Source: Nitrososphaerota archaeon
Lineage (GTDB): Archaea > Thermoproteota > Nitrososphaeria > Nitrososphaerales > Gagatemarchaeaceae
Assembly: GCA_016200045.1 (NCBI GenBank)
Contig: JACQFN010000018.1
Coordinates: forward strand, 62,001 to 126,000
DNA: 64,000 bases
Reading direction: 5' to 3'
Shown: positions 3,735 to 62,596 of the stretch, piece by piece
How the letters are laid out: the number at the start of each line of letters is the position of its first letter
Numbering within the stretch: position 1 is the first letter of the stretch
The notes under the pieces: generated by a model
The model's input: only the letters and a program-made list of their open reading frames with translations
What the model was told of the DNA's origin: nothing
The model's database searches: none
Translations under genes and position numbers: made by a program

Positions 3735-4148
3735 TCACTTTCCGAAAAAGGTCTTCTGTTCGCGGGCGAAGCTCTCCTGAGAGTCCGAGGCGTGTATCGT
3801 GTTGTCGGTGAGCCCCAGACCGTAGTCCCCGCGAATGGTTCCGGCTGCGGCCTCCCAGCTCTTCGTGGCGCCCACCATCCTACGGACTGTTGCTACCGCG
3901 TCCCGACCGGTGAGGACCATCCCGACGACGGGGCCGGAGGTTATGAACGAGACCAGCTCCCCGAAGAACTGCTTCTTGCGGTGAACCGAGTAGAATTCCT
4001 CTGCCTGCGCCTTGGTCATGGTGAGCATCTGGACCCGGGTTACAGAGAACCCCTTCGCTTCAAACCTTCGGAGAATCTCCCCGACTAGGCCGCGCCTCAC
4101 CCCGTCCGGCTTCACGACGATCAGGGTCTCTTCGGGGACCGAGCTCAT
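3735..4148 (-). CDS. ndk: Nucleoside diphosphate kinase
   Basis: 137 residues. It has the N-terminal IVVKPDGVRRG motif and the active-site NTIHASDSQESF, whose His is the phosphorylated residue. It balances NTP pools, for example ATP + GDP to ADP + GTP. The ATG at 4148 overlaps the L24e stop by four bases (ATGA); the open frame further upstream is only the out-of-frame shadow of L24e. It is co-transcribed with L7Ae, S28e and L24e. Confidence 0.96.
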   Translation of the reverse strand: MSSVPEETLIVVKPDGVRRGLVGEILRRFEAKGFSVTRVQMLTMTKAQAEEFYSVHRKKQFFGELVSFITSGPVVGMVLTGRDAVATVRRMVGATKSWEAAAGTIRGDYGLGLTDNTIHASDSQESFAREQKTFFGK

Positions 4149-4327
4149 TGGGCTCTGTTCCTTCGCGCCCACTTGAACTTCCGCGGGTCTCTGCCGAGTT
4201 TGGTGTCGTTGATCTTGCACTTCGAGGAGCAGTACGGCCGGGTCGACCCGTCGTTCCTCACGAAGAGGATTCCCAACCCCAGGCGGATTTCCTTGCCGCA
4301 GAACGAGCATCTCTTTGGGATGTACAT
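4145..4327 (-). CDS. rpl24e: 50S ribosomal protein L24e
   Basis: 60-residue zinc-ribbon protein: CSFCGKEI and YCSSKCKIND supply the CxxC...CxxxC cluster, followed by a basic tail (RKFKWARRNR). Length and sequence match archaeal L24e. It sits 13 nt after S28e and overlaps ndk by 4 nt. Confidence 0.96.
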   Translation of the reverse strand: MYIPKRCSFCGKEIRLGLGILFVRNDGSTRPYCSSKCKINDTKLGRDPRKFKWARRNRAQ

Positions 4328-4340
4328 CGCAAGATATCAC

Positions 4341-4556
4341 TCACTTGAGCTTTCTAGCTTCGCGCTCCGTCTCCCGGAGTACGAGGACGTCGGCCAGCCT
4401 GATCGGGCCCTTCACGTTCCTGGTGAGAATTCTTCCCTTTTCCTTCCCTTCGAGGATCTTCACCCGGACCTGCGTAATCTCTCCCGCGACCCCGGTCCTG
4501 CCTACAATCTGGACGACCTCAGCCGGAGTAAGCGATTCTACTTCTTTCTTGCTCAT
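4341..4556 (-). CDS. rps28e: 30S ribosomal protein S28e
   Basis: 71 residues with the OB-fold core ([20 protein letters not shown]) and the conserved end [12 protein letters not shown], typical of S28e. It overlaps the upstream L7Ae gene by 4 nt, so the two are translationally coupled. Confidence 0.96.
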
Positions 4557-4933
4557 TCGGGCTTCTTCAGCCTCGCGAGTTCCTGGGTGACCTGCTCGAG
4601 GATCTGGGCACCCTCTCCCGCGTCAAGGACTGCCGCGGATGCGGTGGAGACGTCTATCCCGATCGCCGGTCCTATCTGGTCCTTCGAAGGAACGAATACG
4701 AAGGGAATCTTCCTCTCTTCGCAGAGAATCGGGAGATGCGCGACGACCTCGGGGGGCTGAACGTCCTCTGCGATCACAACCAGCTTCGCCATCCCCCGCT
4801 CGATGGCCTTCGTCGTCTCGTTTGTTCCCTTCCTTACTTTGCCGCTTCTTGACGCCTGCCTCAAGACCTCGTATGAGGCCTCAGCGACTTCCTTCGGAGT
4901 CTCGACCTTTACGTAGTAAGCCTTTGGGGTCAT
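4553..4933 (-). CDS. rpl7ae: 50S ribosomal protein L7Ae
   Basis: 126 residues. It has the kink-turn RNA-binding L7Ae/L30e fold: [14 protein letters not shown] near residue 36 and [20 protein letters not shown] in the middle. In archaea it also binds C/D and H/ACA guide RNPs (working with Cbf5, encoded here at 27607) and RNase P. It is the first gene of the L7Ae-S28e-L24e-Ndk run, with a TATA-like box at 4971-4980. Confidence 0.96.
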
Positions 4934-4970
4934 TTCTCAACCAATCGCCCGAGAATGCCCTTCCGGGCCA

Positions 4971-4980
4971 GCATATAAAC
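4971..4980 (-). promoter_or_regulatory. TATA-like box of the L7Ae operon
   Basis: Minus-strand GTTTATATGC lies about 38-47 nt upstream of the L7Ae ATG, in the 95-nt gap after gltX. Confidence 0.5.
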
Positions 4981-5028
4981 GGTTGTAGCTTCGCCGCGGA
5001 ATTCCGGGACATCCCGAGTCGGCAGGGG

Positions 5029-6750
5029 CTATTTGTGGGCGAGGACCATCGTGTTGCGGGAGTCGAGTCTGCAGAACCCGAAGCGCGGGAACTGCACAAT
5101 ATCCCCGACTTTGACCTGCGAGAACGCGTTCTCGACAAGCCCGTGGGCCTCTGTGAGGCTGTGCTGGTCGTACTTTCCCGTCTCGTCGAAGAGAGGGCCA
5201 GCCACCAGTACCTTGATCTCGGTCTGACCCTCCGTCACCCACTGCACCTTCTTCGTGTCCGGGACCAGCCCGTCCCCGGCATAACGAGCTGCCGGCTCTT
5301 CCCCCTTCGAAAGGAGCGTCAGGTTGTAGAGGTCCATCAGCCTGAATACATCACCCTTCTTCAGTGAATCCAGGTCTGCCCGAGGGATGAAGAAATCAGA
5401 GCGGGCTTCGATGGTCCTGGCTCCGAGGTTCTTGTCGGGGTGGTATCGGACTTCGACGCTCCTGGGGGGAGCCCTTTCCACTGAAAGATGAACCGGGTCG
5501 GGCACGAAGAACAGCCTCTTCGTTACCGGGTCGAGGAGCTTCCTGTTTACTGCGTAAAGGAGGCTCCAGTCGTACTCGTGTTCTGACTTCGTGTACCCCA
5601 CCTGCAGGGTGAACTGCCGGATAGCCTCCGGGATGATCCCCCTTCTCCGTATTCCGTCGACGGTGGGCATACGCGGATCGTCCCACCCCGACACGAGCCG
5701 CTCCTCGACGAGCGGCCTGAGGAGCCTCTTCGAGACGGGCGTCCCTTTGAAGTTGAACCTCGAAAACTGGACCACCTCCACAGGCCTGAGACCGAGCCGT
5801 TCACGGAAGAGCCGCTGAAGCTCGTTGTGGAACTCGGAGCTCCTCAGGATGTGGGTTATGCCGCAGAGCTCGTCCTCTATCGTGTTCGCAAGGTCGTAGG
5901 TCGGCCAGAGGGTGTACTTCGTGCCAGTCAGAGTATGGGGGTGGTCGATGACCCTGAAGATGTTCGGGTCGCGGAGCGAATAGTCGAGGCTCTGCATTTC
6001 TCCCCTGAACCTGACGACAAACTTCCCTTCCCCGTGTTTCTTCGCTACGAGCTCCTCCCATATCGCGAGGCTCTCGGGTGGCGGCCTCTCTCTGTGTTCG
6101 CAGGCCTTCCCGTCGAACCTGAGCGCCTTCACGCGCTCGAGGTCGCAGGAACAGACGTACGCGACCCCGTCTTCGAGCATCTTCCTTCCGTAGCCGTAGG
6201 TCACTTCCACGTCGTCCGACACGTTCTTTTCGTGGTCGACCATGATTCCAAGCCACTTCACCCCCCTCCTGAAGCTCTCGTAGTAACGCTTGGAGGCCTT
6301 CCGCGGGTTAGTGTCCTCGAACCTGAGCCAGAGCTCGCCGTCATACATCTCCTTGTAGAGCGAGTTGATGCTGAACGCCATCGCGTGGCCGACGGTCATG
6401 AAGCCAGATGGCTCCGGTGGGAGTCTGAACGCCGTCTTCCCTTTGACCGCGTTCCTGAGGGGCGGGAGCCCCGTCCGTCCCTCTCTTTGCACCAATTCAG
6501 TGGTGCCCGGGTACCGCTCCTGCAGCAGCTTGGCCTGGCCGGCTGGGGACATCTTGTTCACACGGTTGACCGCTGCACTAGCTTCTTCCGCCACGAAAGA
6601 CGGCTCTGACCGGAGGTCTGGGTACTGCCCAAGGATCCTTCCGAGGACAGCCCCGACCTCGGCCTTTCCTCGGTGGTTCGAGGCGTTGAGGAGCGTCTCC
6701 TTCTCTATGGAAGAGAGGACTTCGCGCGGGAGCCTGCCCTTTGCTACCAT
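5029..6750 (-). CDS. gltX: Glutamyl-tRNA synthetase
   Basis: 573 residues. It is an archaeal/GlnRS-like class I synthetase: the degenerate HIGH region is PEPSGFMTVGHA (about 110-121) and the KMSKS-like loop is GTPVSKRLL. The C-terminal half is the beta-barrel anticodon-binding domain of the archaeal type. It probably charges tRNA-Glu and tRNA-Gln, with GatDE correction elsewhere. The ATG at 6750 overlaps the prenyl synthase stop by 7 nt; the open frame continues 22 codons upstream, but only inside that gene. Confidence 0.93.
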   Translation of the reverse strand: MVAKGRLPREVLSSIEKETLLNASNHRGKAEVGAVLGRILGQYPDLRSEPSFVAEEASAAVNRVNKMSPAGQAKLLQERYPGTTELVQREGRTGLPPLRNAVKGKTAFRLPPEPSGFMTVGHAMAFSINSLYKEMYDGELWLRFEDTNPRKASKRYYESFRRGVKWLGIMVDHEKNVSDDVEVTYGYGRKMLEDGVAYVCSCDLERVKALRFDGKACEHRERPPPESLAIWEELVAKKHGEGKFVVRFRGEMQSLDYSLRDPNIFRVIDHPHTLTGTKYTLWPTYDLANTIEDELCGITHILRSSEFHNELQRLFRERLGLRPVEVVQFSRFNFKGTPVSKRLLRPLVEERLVSGWDDPRMPTVDGIRRRGIIPEAIRQFTLQVGYTKSEHEYDWSLLYAVNRKLLDPVTKRLFFVPDPVHLSVERAPPRSVEVRYHPDKNLGARTIEARSDFFIPRADLDSLKKGDVFRLMDLYNLTLLSKGEEPAARYAGDGLVPDTKKVQWVTEGQTEIKVLVAGPLFDETGKYDQHSLTEAHGLVENAFSQVKVGDIVQFPRFGFCRLDSRNTMVLAHK

Positions 6751-7784
6751 TCGCGCTCGACTGCGTACTTCGCGAAAGACTCCAAAAGGGCGGCTGACGA
6801 CCTGTCCCCCGGCCACTCGATCTTCTTCAGCGTGAGGAGCGCCATCTTCAGAAGTTCCTCCGCCCTCTTCCTAGCATATCCGATTGCGTCGTGCTTGTCT
6901 ACCAGGGAAAGGACGTATGAGATGTCCTCGGGAGTCTTGTCATCGCGCGGCTTGTTCATGATCGCGCGGAGCCTGGACTTCTCAGGGGGTCCGGCTGAAT
7001 CCATCAGGTGAAGGAGGATGAGGGTGCGCTTCCCTTCGGCGATGTCGTCAGATTTGGCCTTGCCGTACTTTCGCTCATCTCCAGTCAGGTTGAGGGCGTC
7101 GTCCTGAATCTGGAAAGCGACCCCCAGGTCGGTCCCGAAGGAGCGGAGGGCCTCCAGGACTGATGGCTGCGCACCAGCGACGATCGCCCCGAGCCGACAC
7201 GGGCTGGCTACGGTATACCAAGAGGTCTTCTTCGTGCACATCAGGAAGTAGTCCGCTTCGGTGAGATCCCATCTCTTGTTCTCGACCCAGCCTAGCTCCA
7301 TGTGCTGGCCTTCGGTGGTTTCGTTCACCATCCGAGAGAATTCCCCCAGGACGCCGAGCGTCCGCTCGTGGCCGAGCCTCTGAGAGTTCCCGAGGAGGGC
7401 CCCCCACATCCTGGCGTGAAGAGCGTCCCCGGCGTTGAGCGCCAAGGACACCGGATACTTCCTGTGGAGGGTGGGCTCCCCACGTCTGAGCTGCGAACCG
7501 TCTTCGATATCGTCGTGGATCAGTATCCAGTTCTGGAACATCTCTATGCTTGCCGCAGTCAGGATCGCGTCTTCCTCCGTCCCCCCCGCAGCCTTGCAGG
7601 TCGTGACGCAGAGAAACGGTCGCATCCCCTTGCCCTGACGCGTCGGGTAGTCTCGCATCATCTTGAATAGAAGGTCGACCTCGTGGACAGAATCTGAGAT
7701 GGGAAGGAGACTTCCCAGCATGAGGGAATCGACCTTGTCCTTCACCCGCCTTATCTCTTCCTGGAGATTGTTCGTTCCCCTCAC
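6744..7784 (-). CDS. idsA: Polyprenyl (geranylgeranyl) diphosphate synthase
   Basis: 346 residues. It is a trans-prenyltransferase with the first Asp-rich motif ILIHDDIEDGSQLRRG and the second QIQDDALNLTGDE. It condenses IPP onto allylic diphosphates to make the C20 chain of archaeal ether lipids. The start is GTG at 7784. It lies 15 nt after the isopentenyl phosphate kinase gene, whose product supplies IPP, so substrate and consumer share an operon. Product length (C15/C20/C25) cannot be read from sequence by eye. Confidence 0.92.
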   Translation of the reverse strand: MRGTNNLQEEIRRVKDKVDSLMLGSLLPISDSVHEVDLLFKMMRDYPTRQGKGMRPFLCVTTCKAAGGTEEDAILTAASIEMFQNWILIHDDIEDGSQLRRGEPTLHRKYPVSLALNAGDALHARMWGALLGNSQRLGHERTLGVLGEFSRMVNETTEGQHMELGWVENKRWDLTEADYFLMCTKKTSWYTVASPCRLGAIVAGAQPSVLEALRSFGTDLGVAFQIQDDALNLTGDERKYGKAKSDDIAEGKRTLILLHLMDSAGPPEKSRLRAIMNKPRDDKTPEDISYVLSLVDKHDAIGYARKRAEELLKMALLTLKKIEWPGDRSSAALLESFAKYAVEREW

Positions 7785-17687: not shown

Positions 17688-18707
17688 GTGGTGTCGAAGA
17701 AGGAGGTACTCTCGAAACCGGTGAGCACAATCGAAGTCAGGAAGAAGAGCGTCTCCGCTCTGCTGGAGGAGATGTCACAGACCGGATTCCAGGGGAAAAA
17801 GCTCGGGGAGATAGCCGACATCTGGGGGCAGATGGTCCGCCAGAGGGACCTTACCGTGTTCCTCGGGCTGACAGGCTCGCTCAGCACCACGGGACAGTGG
17901 AAGATAATCAGGTGGCTCATCGAGAAGAGATACATCGACGTCCTGGTCTCGACCGGAGCCAACATCAGCGAGGACATCCTCGAGGCGCTCGGATACCACT
18001 ACTATCAGGGGACCTGGCTTGCGGACGACGAGGCGCTGCTGAAGATGAAGGTCGACAGGTTCTACGACGTGTACGCGGACGAGATGCAGTACAGGAAGCT
18101 GGAGAACACCATCTACAAGTTCGCCGGGACGCTGGACGACCGCCTTGTCTATTCGACGAGGGAGTTCCTGTACCTCTTCGGGGAGTTCCTCTCGAAGAAG
18201 GGGATCGACAGCATAGTCGCGGCCGCCTACGAAAGGAAGGTACCCATCTACTCCCCGGGCCTGATCGACAGCGGCTACGGGGTGGCTTTGAGCCTCCTCA
18301 AGCGGCAGAAGGGGAAGCTCATTCGCCTTGACCAGACAAAAGACATGGACGAGCTGGCTCAGATCGCCGAGAGGACCAAGAAGACCGGGGTCGTGTACCT
18401 CGGGGGCGGAGTACCGAAAGACACGATCCAGCTTTCTACCATCATAAAGTCGCTCGCTGTGGGAGGGAAGGAAGAGACTCCTCACGAATACGCCATTCAG
18501 ATCACAGCCGACAGCCCCCAGTGGGGAGGGCTCTCCGGGTGCACCCTGGAGGAAGCCATCAGCTGGGGGAAGATCTCATCGCGCGCAAAGAAGGCGACGC
18601 TCTACGCAGACATCACGCTTGCCCTACCGCTGGTCGCCCACGCGCTCAACGAGATCGTGGAGGAGAGGGCTTCCCCCCCCGACCTTGGCTGGGTCTTCGA
18701 GAACTAG
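17688..18707 (+). CDS. dys: Deoxyhypusine synthase
   Basis: 339 residues. It has the NAD-binding deoxyhypusine synthase fold, with the catalytic lysine motif AISWGKISSRAKK (Lys295) and the conserved TADSPQWGGLSGCTLEEA just before it. It transfers the aminobutyl group of spermidine to a lysine of aIF5A. Starts with GTG at 17688, about 20 nt after an AATTAAGC stretch. A HEAT-repeat protein resembling half of deoxyhypusine hydroxylase is encoded at 56771. Homospermidine-synthase-like paralogues exist in the family, so the substrate is inferred. Confidence 0.9.
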   Translation: MVSKKEVLSKPVSTIEVRKKSVSALLEEMSQTGFQGKKLGEIADIWGQMVRQRDLTVFLGLTGSLSTTGQWKIIRWLIEKRYIDVLVSTGANISEDILEALGYHYYQGTWLADDEALLKMKVDRFYDVYADEMQYRKLENTIYKFAGTLDDRLVYSTREFLYLFGEFLSKKGIDSIVAAAYERKVPIYSPGLIDSGYGVALSLLKRQKGKLIRLDQTKDMDELAQIAERTKKTGVVYLGGGVPKDTIQLSTIIKSLAVGGKEETPHEYAIQITADSPQWGGLSGCTLEEAISWGKISSRAKKATLYADITLALPLVAHALNEIVEERASPPDLGWVFEN

Positions 18708-56770: not shown

Positions 56771-57283
56771 CTACGGCCTCGGGGCGCGGTCCCTTGCGGT
56801 ACCCCCCACGGAATACCTCCTCAGGAATTCGATGTTGAAGAGCGATGCCCTCGCAGAGTTGCTCACGATGTCGGCCTTGTCGTCAAGGGCCTTCTTCAGC
56901 ACCTCCTCCGCCGCCGGGCTGCCGATCGAGCCGAGTGCGGCCGCCGATTCGTGCCTTACTATGGGATCAGGGTCGGTCAACACCGCGTTCTCGAGGGCGA
57001 CGTTTGCCGCAGGAAGTCCCATCTGTCCGAGAGAGAAGGCGGCTTCGTGTCTCACGAGAGGATCAGGGTCGCGGGCAAGCACTTCCGCCAAGGCAGGTAT
57101 GCACATCTCCCCACCGACTTCGGCCAAGATTGTCACCGCATGGACCCTGAGCACGAGGCTGGGCTCCTCGGTCAGGACCTTGACGAAATAAGACTCGTCC
57201 TTCTTTGCGAAAGCCTCCTCCATTTCCCTCATCACGTCCATGCAGTGCGCCTCGTCGTCGATGACCACGCTCGTGTATTTCAC
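56771..57283 (-). CDS. HEAT-repeat protein resembling one half of deoxyhypusine hydroxylase
   Basis: 170 residues of about four HEAT repeats. Two repeats carry His-Glu pairs in RHEAAFSLGQMG (His79-Glu80) and RHESAAALGSIG (His111-Glu112), 32 residues apart. Deoxyhypusine hydroxylase has four such HE pairs in two halves, with 33-residue spacing, and similar LGQ and LGAIG sequences; this protein would be one half. It could also be a general PBS-lyase HEAT scaffold. The genome has deoxyhypusine synthase (17688), which gives the idea biological sense. Confidence 0.65.
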   Translation of the reverse strand: MKYTSVVIDDEAHCMDVMREMEEAFAKKDESYFVKVLTEEPSLVLRVHAVTILAEVGGEMCIPALAEVLARDPDPLVRHEAAFSLGQMGLPAANVALENAVLTDPDPIVRHESAAALGSIGSPAAEEVLKKALDDKADIVSNSARASLFNIEFLRRYSVGGTARDRAPRP

Positions 57284-57326: not shown

Positions 57327-58481
57327 TCAGCGAAGAGCCTGCTTGAGGTCGGCGAGCAGGTCCTCCGAGTCTTCGATCCCTACCGAGAACCTGACGAGTC
57401 CGTCTGACACCCCGACCTTCTCCCTTTCCGAGGCTGGTACGCTTGAATGGGTCATGGTCGCCGGATGGTCGACCAGCGACTCCACTCCTCCGAGGCTTTC
57501 CGCAAGCGAGAACGTCCTGAGCCTGCCAAGGAACCTCTTGACCGCAGGGAGGCCTCCGCGAAGTTCTGCCGAGAGCATTCCCCCCGGGGCGCGCATCTGC
57601 CTTTCCGCCAGGCCGTGCTGGGGATGGGACGGGAGCCCCGGATAGTGGACGGCAGCGACCTTCGGGTGGCGCAAAAGGTACGAAGCGACCCGCATTGCGT
57701 TTTCGCTGTGCCTCTCCATCCTGAGCTGGAGGGTCTTCGCCCCTCGCATGACGAGAAAGCAGTCGATAGGCGACGGGACAGCGCCGATGGAGTTCTGGTT
57801 GAACTTGAGCCTGGCATAGAGTTCCTTGTCTGAGAGCATGACCGCCCCGCCCACCACGTCGCTGTGCCCCCCGATGTATTTCGTCGTGCTATGGACGACC
57901 GCTGTTGCCCCAAGTTCCAGCGGGTTCTGGAGGCAAGGGCTCGCGAACGTGTTGTCCACGATGGACACCACCCCATGCTTGGATGCGGCATTCGCTATCG
58001 ACCGGATGTCGCATATCCTCATCAGGGGATTGCTTGGGCTTTCGAGCCAGACGACCTTCGTCTTACGGGTGAGAGCCTTCGTCACCATTGTAGTGTGCCT
58101 CGAATCGACGTACGAGGTGCTGACCCCGAACTTCCTGAACGTCGTCTCGAGGAGGCGACGGGTCCCGCCGTATAGGTCGTCCCCAGCCACCACGTGGTCT
58201 CCCTCAGACAGGATCGTGAGCAGTAGGGTCGCCTCCGCGGCCATCCCGGACGAGAAGGCGAGTCCGAACTTCGCGTTCTCCAATGCGGCAAGCTTCTTTT
58301 CCAGCGCGGACCTCGTGGGGTTTTCCGTCCTGGAATACTCGAGTCCCTTCGGAGGCTTGTCAACCTCACGCCTGGCGAAGGTCGCGGAGAGGTGGATGGG
58401 AGAGACGACGTCCCCACCGGACTTGAAGTCGGGTTGCTCTCCTGAGTGGACGGCTTTTGTAGAGAACTTCAAACGCATCAT
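57327..58481 (-). CDS. Cystathionine gamma-synthase/lyase family PLP enzyme
   Basis: 384 residues. PLP lysine in VHSTTKYIGGHSDVVGGAVM, SGMAAEATLLLTILSEGDHV for cofactor phosphate, and NPTRSALEKKLAALE at the N-terminus are family hallmarks. Overlapping the cystathionine beta-synthase-like gene by 4 nt, it most likely acts as cystathionine gamma-lyase in reverse transsulfuration (Met to Cys); synthase activity cannot be excluded. Confidence 0.9.
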   Translation of the reverse strand: MMRLKFSTKAVHSGEQPDFKSGGDVVSPIHLSATFARREVDKPPKGLEYSRTENPTRSALEKKLAALENAKFGLAFSSGMAAEATLLLTILSEGDHVVAGDDLYGGTRRLLETTFRKFGVSTSYVDSRHTTMVTKALTRKTKVVWLESPSNPLMRICDIRSIANAASKHGVVSIVDNTFASPCLQNPLELGATAVVHSTTKYIGGHSDVVGGAVMLSDKELYARLKFNQNSIGAVPSPIDCFLVMRGAKTLQLRMERHSENAMRVASYLLRHPKVAAVHYPGLPSHPQHGLAERQMRAPGGMLSAELRGGLPAVKRFLGRLRTFSLAESLGGVESLVDHPATMTHSSVPASEREKVGVSDGLVRFSVGIEDSEDLLADLKQALR

Positions 58482-59842
58482 CTGCCCGAGAGGTATCTTA
58501 TGACGTCTGCGGCCGACATCACGGCGACGACACGCGCCCCTTTTGTGACCGCGAACGACCCACGCCTGGCCAGCAGGGATGCAAAGTCTCTGACGCGCGA
58601 CTTCACCTCGACCGAAGGGAGGGGCTCTTCCATGATGTCTTCGACCTTCATTGGCCGGCCTTTCCCTTTCGGCGACATGCCCTTGATTAGGTCGAGGGCC
58701 GAGATGCTCCCGACCTGCGTCCCCCGGTCGACGACCGGGAGTGCCGAGGCTCTGGTTCCCTCTAACAGCTTCAGCGCAGTGGGCAGGGCGTCGCCAGGCT
58801 TCGGGAACGGCGGTTGGCCATGGCTGACCCTCATCATTGACCCGACCGATACACTGGGCCCTTCCCTGAGGAGGAAACCGTGCTCTGCCATCCAGTCGTC
58901 GTCGTAGAACTTGTTTACGTAGTTCCGCCCCGTGTCGGGAAGTATGACGACCACGGTCGATGAAGCCCCGAGCTCTTTCGCGACCTTCAGGGCGGCGTAT
59001 ACGGCTGCCCCTGAGGACCCGCCCGCCAGCAGCCCTTCCTCCTTTGCCAGCCTTCTCGCAGTTTCGAACGCCTGCTTGTCTGTCACGGTTACGAACTCGT
59101 CGATGATGGACATGTCAAGGGTCTTGGGGATGAAGTCTTCCCCGATCCCTTCGACACGGTAGGTCTCGGGGGCGGACTTTAGTCCGCGGAAGGTCCCCGC
59201 GAGTATTGAGCCCGCTGGGTCAGCCCCTACGACCTTGACACAGGGGTTCCGCTCCTTGAGGTATCTCCCAGTCCCGCTAATCGTCCCTCCTGTTCCGACG
59301 CTTGCCACGAGAACGTCCACCTTCCCTTTCGTCTGACGCCAGACTTCCGGGCCAGTGGTCTCATAGTGTGCACGCGGGTTAGCCATGTTCTCGTACTGGT
59401 TCGGCAGGAACGAGCGGGGAGTCTCCCTGGCTATCCTCTTTGCTAGTTCGACGTGGCTCCTGGGGTCGTCGGGGGCGACCTTCGTGGGAGTGACCCTGAC
59501 CTTCGCCCCTACGGCCTTCAGAAGGTCGATCTTCTCTCGGCTCATCTTGTCGGGGACAGTGAAGATGATCTTGTATCCCCTTACCGCCGCTGCCAGCGCC
59601 AAACCCATCCCCGTGTTCCCGGAGGTCGGTTCGATAATGGTGTACCCCGGTCTCAGGAGCCCTCTCGCCTCCGCGTCGAGGACCATCGAGAGGCCTATCC
59701 TGTCCTTGACGCTCCCCCCTGGATTGGAGTATTCGAGTTTCGCATAGACGTTCGCCTTCAGGCCTCTCGTGACCCTGTTGAGGCGGACGAGGGGGGTACC
59801 ACCGATAAGTTCGAGCACGTCGTTTGCCACGGCAGAGTTCAA
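58478..59842 (-). CDS. Cystathionine beta-synthase / cysteine synthase with two CBS domains
   Basis: About 454 residues from the TTG at 59842. PLP lysine at Lys46 (YSNPGGSVKDR), TSGNTGMGLALAAAVRGY, and SVGTGGTISGTGRYLKE show the fold-type II synthase; the last 120 residues are a CBS pair (VEDIMEEPLPSVEVKSRVRD). No haem domain. A GTG at 59830 is an alternative start, and the frame stays open to 59956 inside the ammonium transporter gene. Partner of the gamma-lyase-like enzyme. Confidence 0.88.
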   Translation of the reverse strand: MNSAVANDVLELIGGTPLVRLNRVTRGLKANVYAKLEYSNPGGSVKDRIGLSMVLDAEARGLLRPGYTIIEPTSGNTGMGLALAAAVRGYKIIFTVPDKMSREKIDLLKAVGAKVRVTPTKVAPDDPRSHVELAKRIARETPRSFLPNQYENMANPRAHYETTGPEVWRQTKGKVDVLVASVGTGGTISGTGRYLKERNPCVKVVGADPAGSILAGTFRGLKSAPETYRVEGIGEDFIPKTLDMSIIDEFVTVTDKQAFETARRLAKEEGLLAGGSSGAAVYAALKVAKELGASSTVVVILPDTGRNYVNKFYDDDWMAEHGFLLREGPSVSVGSMMRVSHGQPPFPKPGDALPTALKLLEGTRASALPVVDRGTQVGSISALDLIKGMSPKGKGRPMKVEDIMEEPLPSVEVKSRVRDFASLLARRGSFAVTKGARVVAVMSAADVIRYLSGR

Positions 59843-59903
59843 CCTAGAATGGGGCGAGGGCCCTGCGAGGCGCGTGATAAACTGGGCGGTGGAAGCGGCA
59901 TTG

Positions 59904-61142
59904 TCAGCTGTACGCATCTTCGCCGTGTTGGCTCTCGTCAAGACCAAGCTCTTCATCCTCGGGGGTGACCCTGATGGGAGTGAAGACTCCGATGGCCTTT
60001 AGGAGAACAAACGAGCCGAGGAAGGCGAAGGCGCTCACGACGGCTATGGCGAACAGTTCAATTCCAAGGAGCGAAGGGTTCCCGTAGAGGGCGCCGTCGA
60101 CGCCGTTGATTGCGCTCGACGCGAAGATTCCGGTCGCGATGACCCCCCACATGCTTCCCGCCCCGTGGCACGCGAAGACGTCCAGGGAATCGTCGAATAT
60201 ATTACGGCTTGCGCGCAGGTTGGCGACGAGGTTCGAGCTCACCCCCACTACAAGGCCGATCACTATGGCTGCTGTGGTGTTAACGTATCCTGCCGCAGGA
60301 GTGATCGCGACCAACCCGCAGACGGCTCCGACCGATATGCCCACGGCGGAGGGCTTCCCTTTCCGGGACCAGTCCACAAGCATCCATGTCACCGCGGCCG
60401 CGGCGGCTGCCATGTTGGTGTTGACCAGGGCCTGTACGGCCAGCTCGTTCGCGGCGAGGGCGCTTCCCCCGTTGAAACCGAACCACCCGAACCAGAGGAT
60501 GGCGGCGCCGAGTATAACGAATGGGACGTTGTTGGGCCGGACCTCCTCAGGCTTCGAGACCCCTTTCCTCCTGCCGATGACAATCGCGGCCGCAAGCGCG
60601 GATACTCCCGCAGAAATGTGGACGACCAAGCCGCCTGCGAAGTCGACGACTCCCATCGACTGGAGCCACCCTCCTCCCCAGACCCAGTGCGCGATCGGGG
60701 CGTAGATCAGGGTGGCCCAGGCCATGGTGAAGAGCAACAGCGCCTTGAACCGTATCCTCTCGGCGAAGGCCCCGATTATCAGCGCAGGGGTAATGGCAGC
60801 GAATTTCAGCTGGAAGGCGAAGTAGAGGAGTTCAGGGATGGGCTGGGACCCGAGCGGAGATGCGCCCACCCCCATGAGCCCGACCTTCGAGAGGTTCCCG
60901 ATGACCCCTCCTACCGACGGCGCGAAGGCTTCGCTGTATCCCCACAGGGCCCAAACGAGGCTCACCACGGCGAAGATCGTCATCGTCTGGACTATGGTCG
61001 AGATCAGGTTCTTCCGTCTGACGAGGCCCCCGTAGAAGAAGCCGAGAGCGGGGGTCATGATCATGACCAGGGCCGTCGAAGTAAGGACCCAGGCGACAGC
61101 CCCAGAATCAATCAAAAGAATTTCGTCGCCCTGCTCGGCCAT
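59904..61142 (-). CDS. amt: Ammonium transporter (Amt/MEP/Rh)
   Basis: 412 residues, about eleven membrane helices. ALGFFYGGLVRRKNLISTIV, FAFQLKFAAITPALIIGAFA, DFAGGLVVHISAGVSALAAA and FACHGAGSMWGVIATGIFAS are Amt signatures, including the two pore histidines. The C-terminal tail (after about 380) is cytosolic. No glnB/PII gene is adjacent, unlike many prokaryotic amt loci. Confidence 0.95.
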   Translation of the reverse strand: MAEQGDEILLIDSGAVAWVLTSTALVMIMTPALGFFYGGLVRRKNLISTIVQTMTIFAVVSLVWALWGYSEAFAPSVGGVIGNLSKVGLMGVGASPLGSQPIPELLYFAFQLKFAAITPALIIGAFAERIRFKALLLFTMAWATLIYAPIAHWVWGGGWLQSMGVVDFAGGLVVHISAGVSALAAAIVIGRRKGVSKPEEVRPNNVPFVILGAAILWFGWFGFNGGSALAANELAVQALVNTNMAAAAAAVTWMLVDWSRKGKPSAVGISVGAVCGLVAITPAAGYVNTTAAIVIGLVVGVSSNLVANLRASRNIFDDSLDVFACHGAGSMWGVIATGIFASSAINGVDGALYGNPSLLGIELFAIAVVSAFAFLGSFVLLKAIGVFTPIRVTPEDEELGLDESQHGEDAYS

Positions 61143-61530: not shown

Positions 61531-61555
61531 CGAGACCCGCACTCGCTTGGATGGA

Positions 61556-62596
61556 ATGGGCAGGCTCAGCTTCGTAGGCCTGGGACTCGGCCCAAAGGGG
61601 GTTAGCCTAGAGGGGATTGAAGAAATGAGAAACGCAGACAAGGTCTATCTCGAGTACTACACCACCCCTCACGAGCCAAGGCTCCTTAGTAGGCTTCAGG
61701 AATACTCGGGTAACCAATTGACCATAGTCGACAGGGAGTTCGTGGAGGACGGGGGAAAGATTCTGGACGAGGCGAGGAAGGGGAAGGTGGTGTTGGCCGC
61801 CCTTGGCGACCCGATGATAGCGACGACCCACGGCGAGCTTAGGGTGAGGGCAATCAGATCCGGAGTCGAGACTAGGGTGGTCCATTCGTCGAGCATATCT
61901 TCGGCCTCGGCCAGTGAGTCGGGCCTACACTACTACAAGTTCTCGAGGACGGTCACGGTGACCAGGGAGGCGGTGAGGAAGCTCTCCCAGCCATACCACA
62001 TGGTTCATGAGAACCTCCTGATGGGAGCCCATACTCTTCTGCTCCTGGAGTACGATGTACAGAGCGGGGAAGGCGTGTCCCCTGCGGATGCCATTTCGGG
62101 GTTGCTCAATGCGGAGACGAACTTCAAGAGAGGAGCGCTGGGTGAACGGACATTCGCGCTTGCCCTGACAAGGGTAGGCAGGGAGGACGAGCAGCTTGCC
62201 GCAGGAGAGTTCAGTGAGCTCGGACGGAAGAAGTACGGAGAGCCACCTCATTGTCTGGTGATACCCGGGACTTTGCATTTCACGGAGACGGAAGCGATAT
62301 CGGCGATTTTCGGCATCGAGATGTCAAGGGTACACGGGAATTCTGAAGAGACGCCCAGGACGGCGCAGACCTTGGTGCCGAGATACGTGGAGAAGACAAA
62401 GCGGGCATTGGCGTCGCTCAAGGGAAGGGTGGGGCCTGAACATGCGGCCGTCATCGAGAACGCCGAGCTTTATCTGAAAGACGCCGAGAGCAACATAGCG
62501 AACGGGGAGGACGAGATGGCCATGCTCAACGTCGGCTACGCAGAAGGGCTGATCGACTCCCTAGGACTCTCCGGCGCGGCGAAGGTGGAGTGGTAA
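61556..62596 (+). CDS. dph5: Diphthine synthase with fused C-terminal DUF357-like domain
   Basis: 346 residues from the ATG at 61556. Residues 1-262 are the SAM-dependent methylase (LSFVGLGLGPKGVSLEGIEE, ALGDPMIATTHGELRVRA, PYHMVHENLLMGAHTLLLLE) that makes diphthine on EF2. Residues about 275-346 (RYVEKTKRALASLKGRVGPE, then AELYLKDAESNIANGEDEMA) look like the helical DUF357 domain, often an independent protein in archaea. It is followed without gap by the HTH-nucleotidylyltransferase gene. Confidence 0.9.
   Translation: MGRLSFVGLGLGPKGVSLEGIEEMRNADKVYLEYYTTPHEPRLLSRLQEYSGNQLTIVDREFVEDGGKILDEARKGKVVLAALGDPMIATTHGELRVRAIRSGVETRVVHSSSISSASASESGLHYYKFSRTVTVTREAVRKLSQPYHMVHENLLMGAHTLLLLEYDVQSGEGVSPADAISGLLNAETNFKRGALGERTFALALTRVGREDEQLAAGEFSELGRKKYGEPPHCLVIPGTLHFTETEAISAIFGIEMSRVHGNSEETPRTAQTLVPRYVEKTKRALASLKGRVGPEHAAVIENAELYLKDAESNIANGEDEMAMLNVGYAEGLIDSLGLSGAAKVEW

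Follow-up and report, generated by a model that had tools for sequence, protein, structure and literature searches.

A half-size HEAT-repeat protein resembling one half of deoxyhypusine hydroxylase in oxygen-respiring Nitrososphaeria and related archaea: a candidate homodimeric hydroxylase

Deoxyhypusine hydroxylase (DOHH; EC 1.14.99.29) is the eukaryotic enzyme that completes hypusine at the expense of O2, and it consists of one chain of about 300 aa in which eight HEAT repeats form two symmetrical halves of four repeats each. The window presented here, a stretch of 64,000 nucleotides from a Nitrososphaerota contig (JACQFN010000018.1, positions 62,001 to 126,000), encodes a HEAT protein of roughly half that size, and the question is whether two copies of it could do the work of DOHH; if so, they would represent a simpler version of that enzyme. 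An archaeal DOHH was not identified in the literature searched and no report was found of hypusine in Thaumarchaeota or ammonia-oxidising archaea, although most subscription journals and all preprints lay outside the search and a report could have been missed. The gene, whose family is called family A below, and its sites of interest are located as follows.

56771..57283, minus strand: family A half-DOHH-like HEAT protein (ORF call; GTG start; 170 aa)
57044..57049, minus strand: first His-Glu pair, H79-E80; its counterparts in human DOHH are H56-E57 and H207-E208 (alignment to both halves); invariant
57023..57031, minus strand: L85-G86-Q87, part of HExx[FY]x[LM]GQ; G86 corresponds to DOHH Gly214 and to G63 of its N-terminal half
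56948..56953, minus strand: second His-Glu pair, H111-E112; its counterparts in human DOHH are H89-E90 and H240-E241; invariant

The ORF is a real gene, since relatives are conserved at 69-74% identity in the same genus and at about 45% identity farther away. Its product is modelled by AF2 as an all-helical HEAT solenoid (pLDDT 90.4). The sequence-only reading had described two His-Glu (HE) pairs 32 residues apart with the local sequences HEAAFSLGQMG and HESAAALGSIG, and these are indeed found at residues 79-80 and 111-112. Both pairs are invariant in all 85 aligned rows and in a set of 68 distinct family A sequences, in which G86, Q87, G118 and G121 are likewise constant; conservation of the HE pairs is thus far beyond chance. 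The same genomes also encode generic long HEAT proteins; none of those alignable with the profile has HE at both sites, and where other HEAT stretches align, the His positions are occupied by residues such as A, R, S or C. The weaker matches that do have HE are each a fragment of family A or a member of the paralogous family B described below. A scan of six-frame ORFs (487,504 residues) gave 69 occurrences of HExx[FY]x[LM]GQ, always in family A and always with a second HE 30-35 residues on; in human DOHH it occurs at 56 and 207 only, with the second HE 33 residues on in each half.

Relatives in public genomes belong to Nitrososphaerales/Thaumarchaeota MAGs. Family A matches were obtained in 222 of 300 genomes of the class (E ≤ 1e-10, mostly single copy), a few of the weakest being other HEAT proteins, and a profile built from 15 family A sequences (A1) detected the family in 81 of 398 genomes of the phylum, including the families f35, f50 and f77 outside the class. 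Families f35, f50 and f30 belong to one order, which we take to be Caldarchaeales, while f40 presumably belongs to Sulfolobales. The genome of the window (1.54 Mb, 97% complete) has a single family A copy and one further HEAT_2 gene, encoding a long protein. Relatives on viral contigs or on plasmids were not found. Two loci (L132, G275:C11:6500-9000; L133, G282:C77:21000-24000) hold short or decayed family A remnants with the second HE only, perhaps through gene loss or assembly error, and a split of the gene in genome G113 proved to be only apparent, being caused by masked (N) stretches.

The invariant positions acquire meaning from mutagenised residues of the human enzyme, in which, according to a review, the ligands of the two irons are H56, H89, E90, H207, H240 and E241, and the residues that contact the deoxyhypusine chain are E57, E90, E208, E241, G65 and G214 (PMC9117371). 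In the human sequence that we used, whose residues 1-289 are letter-identical to 4d4z, G214 has G63 as its equivalent in the N-terminal half. The five site positions of each DOHH half (H, E, G, H, E) fall on H79, E80, G86, H111 and E112 of family A, invariant in the 68 distinct sequences. Against the A1 profile, the DOHH halves reach nearly the same score (67.8 and 65.3 bits), which is what a homodimer equivalent would lead one to expect. They share 41% identity with each other and 31-38% with the window protein, whose predicted model superimposes on 4d4z_A with an rmsd of 1.7 A over 129 columns. The sequence-only interpretation is thus supported in part: the likeness to one half of DOHH extends to the mutagenised iron and substrate residues, and the predicted fold and the distribution treated below agree with it.

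The explanation that we favour, which we hold to be about evenly balanced between right and wrong, is that family A is a homodimeric O2-dependent DOHH-like hydroxylase with aIF5A as its substrate. A DOHH-like action as a homodimer is the most likely part of this reading, and aIF5A is the probable substrate. Each subunit would be a short HEAT solenoid carrying H79-E80 and H111-E112 on two equivalent helices that follow each other, and two identical subunits would come face to face with two-fold symmetry, like the pseudo-symmetric halves of DOHH. The dimer would then bring together eight His/Glu side chains, with H79, H111 and E112 of each subunit holding one iron and E80, E112 and G86 contacting the deoxyhypusine side chain. 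The putative di-iron centre would turn O2 into a peroxo species, and the aminobutyl chain on aIF5A would be hydroxylated from deoxyhypusine to hypusine.

An O2-dependent enzyme of this kind can be compared with the distribution of oxygen respiration, represented here by COX1 (haem-copper oxidase, PF00115). Within the class, 198 genomes carry both family A and COX1, 24 family A only, 36 COX1 only and 42 neither. Outside the class, COX1 is found in eight of nine family A-bearing genomes, the ninth being 81% complete. When deoxyhypusine synthase (DS) family genes are also counted, family A is present in 30 of the 38 genera with COX1 and at least two DS genes, against 2 of the 41 other genera (sampled genomes). 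Only two A-bearing genera, g27 and g63, have a single DS gene, and they are represented by drafts or by one genome each. Family A is missing from 18 genomes of the sample that combine COX1 with two DS genes, some of them incomplete. By these counts, which are uncorrected for shared ancestry, family A is confined almost wholly to O2-respiring archaea with DS-type genes.

The synthase genes also bear on the identity of the substrate. One of them lies in the window, 38 kb from the family A gene, and is a possible pathway partner.

17688..18707, plus strand: deoxyhypusine-synthase-family gene of the PRK00805/GGGVPKD subtype (Pfam DS, E = 2.8e-93)

The statement that dys is present at this position holds for the gene family; however, the gene is a GGGVPKD paralogue, and the canonical synthase (PRK01221, GGGISKHH) is encoded on another contig (G000:C12:71370-72227; L131). 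Its GGGxxKHH subtype is shared by the window genome and an archaeon with a single DHS (G358), and NCBIfam names both the PRK00805 and the PRK01221 types deoxyhypusine synthase. The aIF5A gene, with the PGKHG modification loop, is located outside the window (G000:C3:98771-99157). Nearly all genomes with family A have two DS-family genes, which adjoin each other in some. In one f35 genome (G414; locus L089), the start of family A and a divergent PRK00805-type gene are 75 bp apart, and the latter abuts a PRK01221-type DHS, so that the canonical DHS, the PRK00805-type DHS and family A stand in a row at 4126-6642. Another f35 genus (G314 and G342) has its nearer DHS at a distance of 5 kb from family A. 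Elsewhere, the distance is 24-65 kb in several genomes and hundreds of kb in others, and DHS proximity as a general test is not significant beyond f35; adjacency limited to one lineage gives modest support.

Since the occurrence of family A follows that of the second DS-type gene and of COX1, the substrate may be something other than canonical deoxyhypusine. It is possible, if unlikely, that family A, as a dimeric di-iron oxygenase of the DOHH type, acts on a different target, for instance the PRK00805-type product, a polyamine, or a side chain of another protein or of tRNA. The immediate divergent neighbour in L089, being the PRK00805 paralogue and not the canonical DHS, points the same way, and so does a second half-size HEAT family of the same order, family B (alignment A2; L110-L117 and L120-L124), in which both HE pairs are invariant and G86/Q87 are mostly missing, a sign that the scaffold has diversified. 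Against another substrate stands the Gly position with which DOHH binds deoxyhypusine, because it is invariant in family A.

Other genes near family A are described here as observations in their own right. Within the genus of the window, family A is found beside sulfur-amino-acid and mevalonate genes. Specifically, cystathionine gamma-synthase-like and cystathionine beta-synthase-like genes lie upstream of it at 57327-59956, and the latter is kept beside family A within the genus. A dph5 diphthine synthase (TIGR00522, E = 2e-57) that carries a fused DUF357 domain at its C terminus is located at 61547-62596, 4.3 kb from family A, and a dph5 homologue is also near family A in three f77 loci (L091-L093). 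In L089, a ferritin-like gene is placed at 7213-7695, 0.6 kb beyond family A. Apart from the DHS genes in f35 and dph5 in f77, no neighbours recur across families.

Slightly less probable than a change of substrate is that no catalysis takes place, family A being an ordinary HEAT_PBS adaptor whose HE pairs are structural or protein-binding and whose likeness to DOHH is convergence in a widespread type of repeat. The general searches can be read in this way. Pfam gives HEAT_2 (PF13646) with 112.3 bits against a cut-off of 27.7 (E = 1.4e-32) and HEAT_PBS (PF03130) with 52.3 bits against 20.9, and designed consensus HEAT proteins top the PDB searches; as these lack HE and outscore DOHH overall, the similarity beyond the motif is that of ordinary HEAT repeats. 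Furthermore, a tree computed without the HE columns does not join family A to DOHH (supports 46-77), which means that the functional likeness rests on the site and that common ancestry is not established. The sequence-only reading had named a profile search of DOHH versus PBS-lyase HEAT families as a check, and the placement with HEAT_2 and HEAT_PBS was obtained; however, Pfam and NCBIfam returned no DOHH model, so this placement does not refute kinship with DOHH. Among natural proteins the searches favour DOHH: it is the best match of the window protein in the PDB (phmmer, 1.7e-23), the family A profile gives it 6.4e-37 vs 3e-8 for YibA and 7e-7 for CpcE, and it is the only natural protein among solved structures that the predicted model retrieves in a fold search (E ≤ 0.001). 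What speaks against an adaptor is that both HE pairs and G86/Q87 stay invariant down to about 45% identity while the long HEAT proteins that align in these genomes lack HE, that every mutagenised site residue of DOHH has its match, and that human DOHH is the first PDB match of the family B profile (2.8e-21), above the designed repeats. Finally, chromophore binding in the manner of the NblB/CpcE phycobilin lyases is very improbable, as the weak NCBIfam matches to these proteins (NblB 42.2 bits, CpcE and CpcF 14.7 and 15.9 bits) are far below the curated cut-offs of 300, 330 and 220 bits and the profile search places CpcE some 30 orders of magnitude behind DOHH.

If family A is a DOHH-like hydroxylase, its relation to family B and to the eukaryotic enzyme has to be considered. 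Family B is found in 53 of the 300 class genomes, all of families f2 and f4, which are presumably ammonia-oxidiser families, and is not present in the window genome; its fold search also has human DOHH as first match. Most genomes with family A, including that of the window, lack family B, so family A must work without it, and family B is possibly a heterodimer partner of family A or a separate oxygenase. A more far-reaching version, which we offer tentatively and consider doubtful as a whole, is that family A is the homodimeric deoxyhypusine hydroxylase of O2-respiring Nitrososphaeria and their relatives, a surviving single-half state from before the duplication and fusion that gave DOHH, and that A and B may heterodimerise in some ammonia oxidisers as a DOHH in trans. 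A role of the half-size protein as the general archaeal hydroxylase is not supported. Sulfolobus acidocaldarius, Acidianus, Pyrodictium and Thermoproteus reportedly contain hypusine (PMC5178350), and no HEAT_2 protein was found in the S. acidocaldarius control genome, so that the hydroxylase of this organism must be of another kind. Family A is nevertheless a concrete candidate hydroxylase for one large archaeal group, including ammonia oxidisers, and it raises the questions of whether hypusine is made in these archaea, whether a homodimer builds the DOHH di-iron site and whether eukaryotic DOHH consists of two fused halves.

Compared with known systems, family A is closest in its site to human DOHH (4D4Z). 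Both are built of HEAT repeats and share HExx[FY]xLGQ with a second HE one repeat on, and the iron ligands H, H and E and the substrate positions E and G of one DOHH half all have counterparts in family A. They differ in length (302 aa in DOHH, 170 aa in family A), in HE spacing (33 vs 32) and in the number of HE pairs, which is four per DOHH chain and two in family A, becoming four only if it dimerises. A form of family A with both halves in one chain was not seen in the loci examined. Judged by its sequence, with one half and two HE pairs, family A is by strict membership not DOHH. The paralogous family B agrees with family A in length and in the HE spacing of 32, but has the GQ of the first motif mostly replaced by AA. 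The alphaRep designed HEAT-like repeats share the overall repeat sequence and the fold and reach the highest bit scores, reflecting how well family A also fits a generic HEAT pattern, but they are artificial and have no HE pairs in the matched stretches. NblB, CpcE/CpcF, E. coli YibA and MTH187 have the HEAT_PBS repeat type in common with family A, but score far below DOHH.
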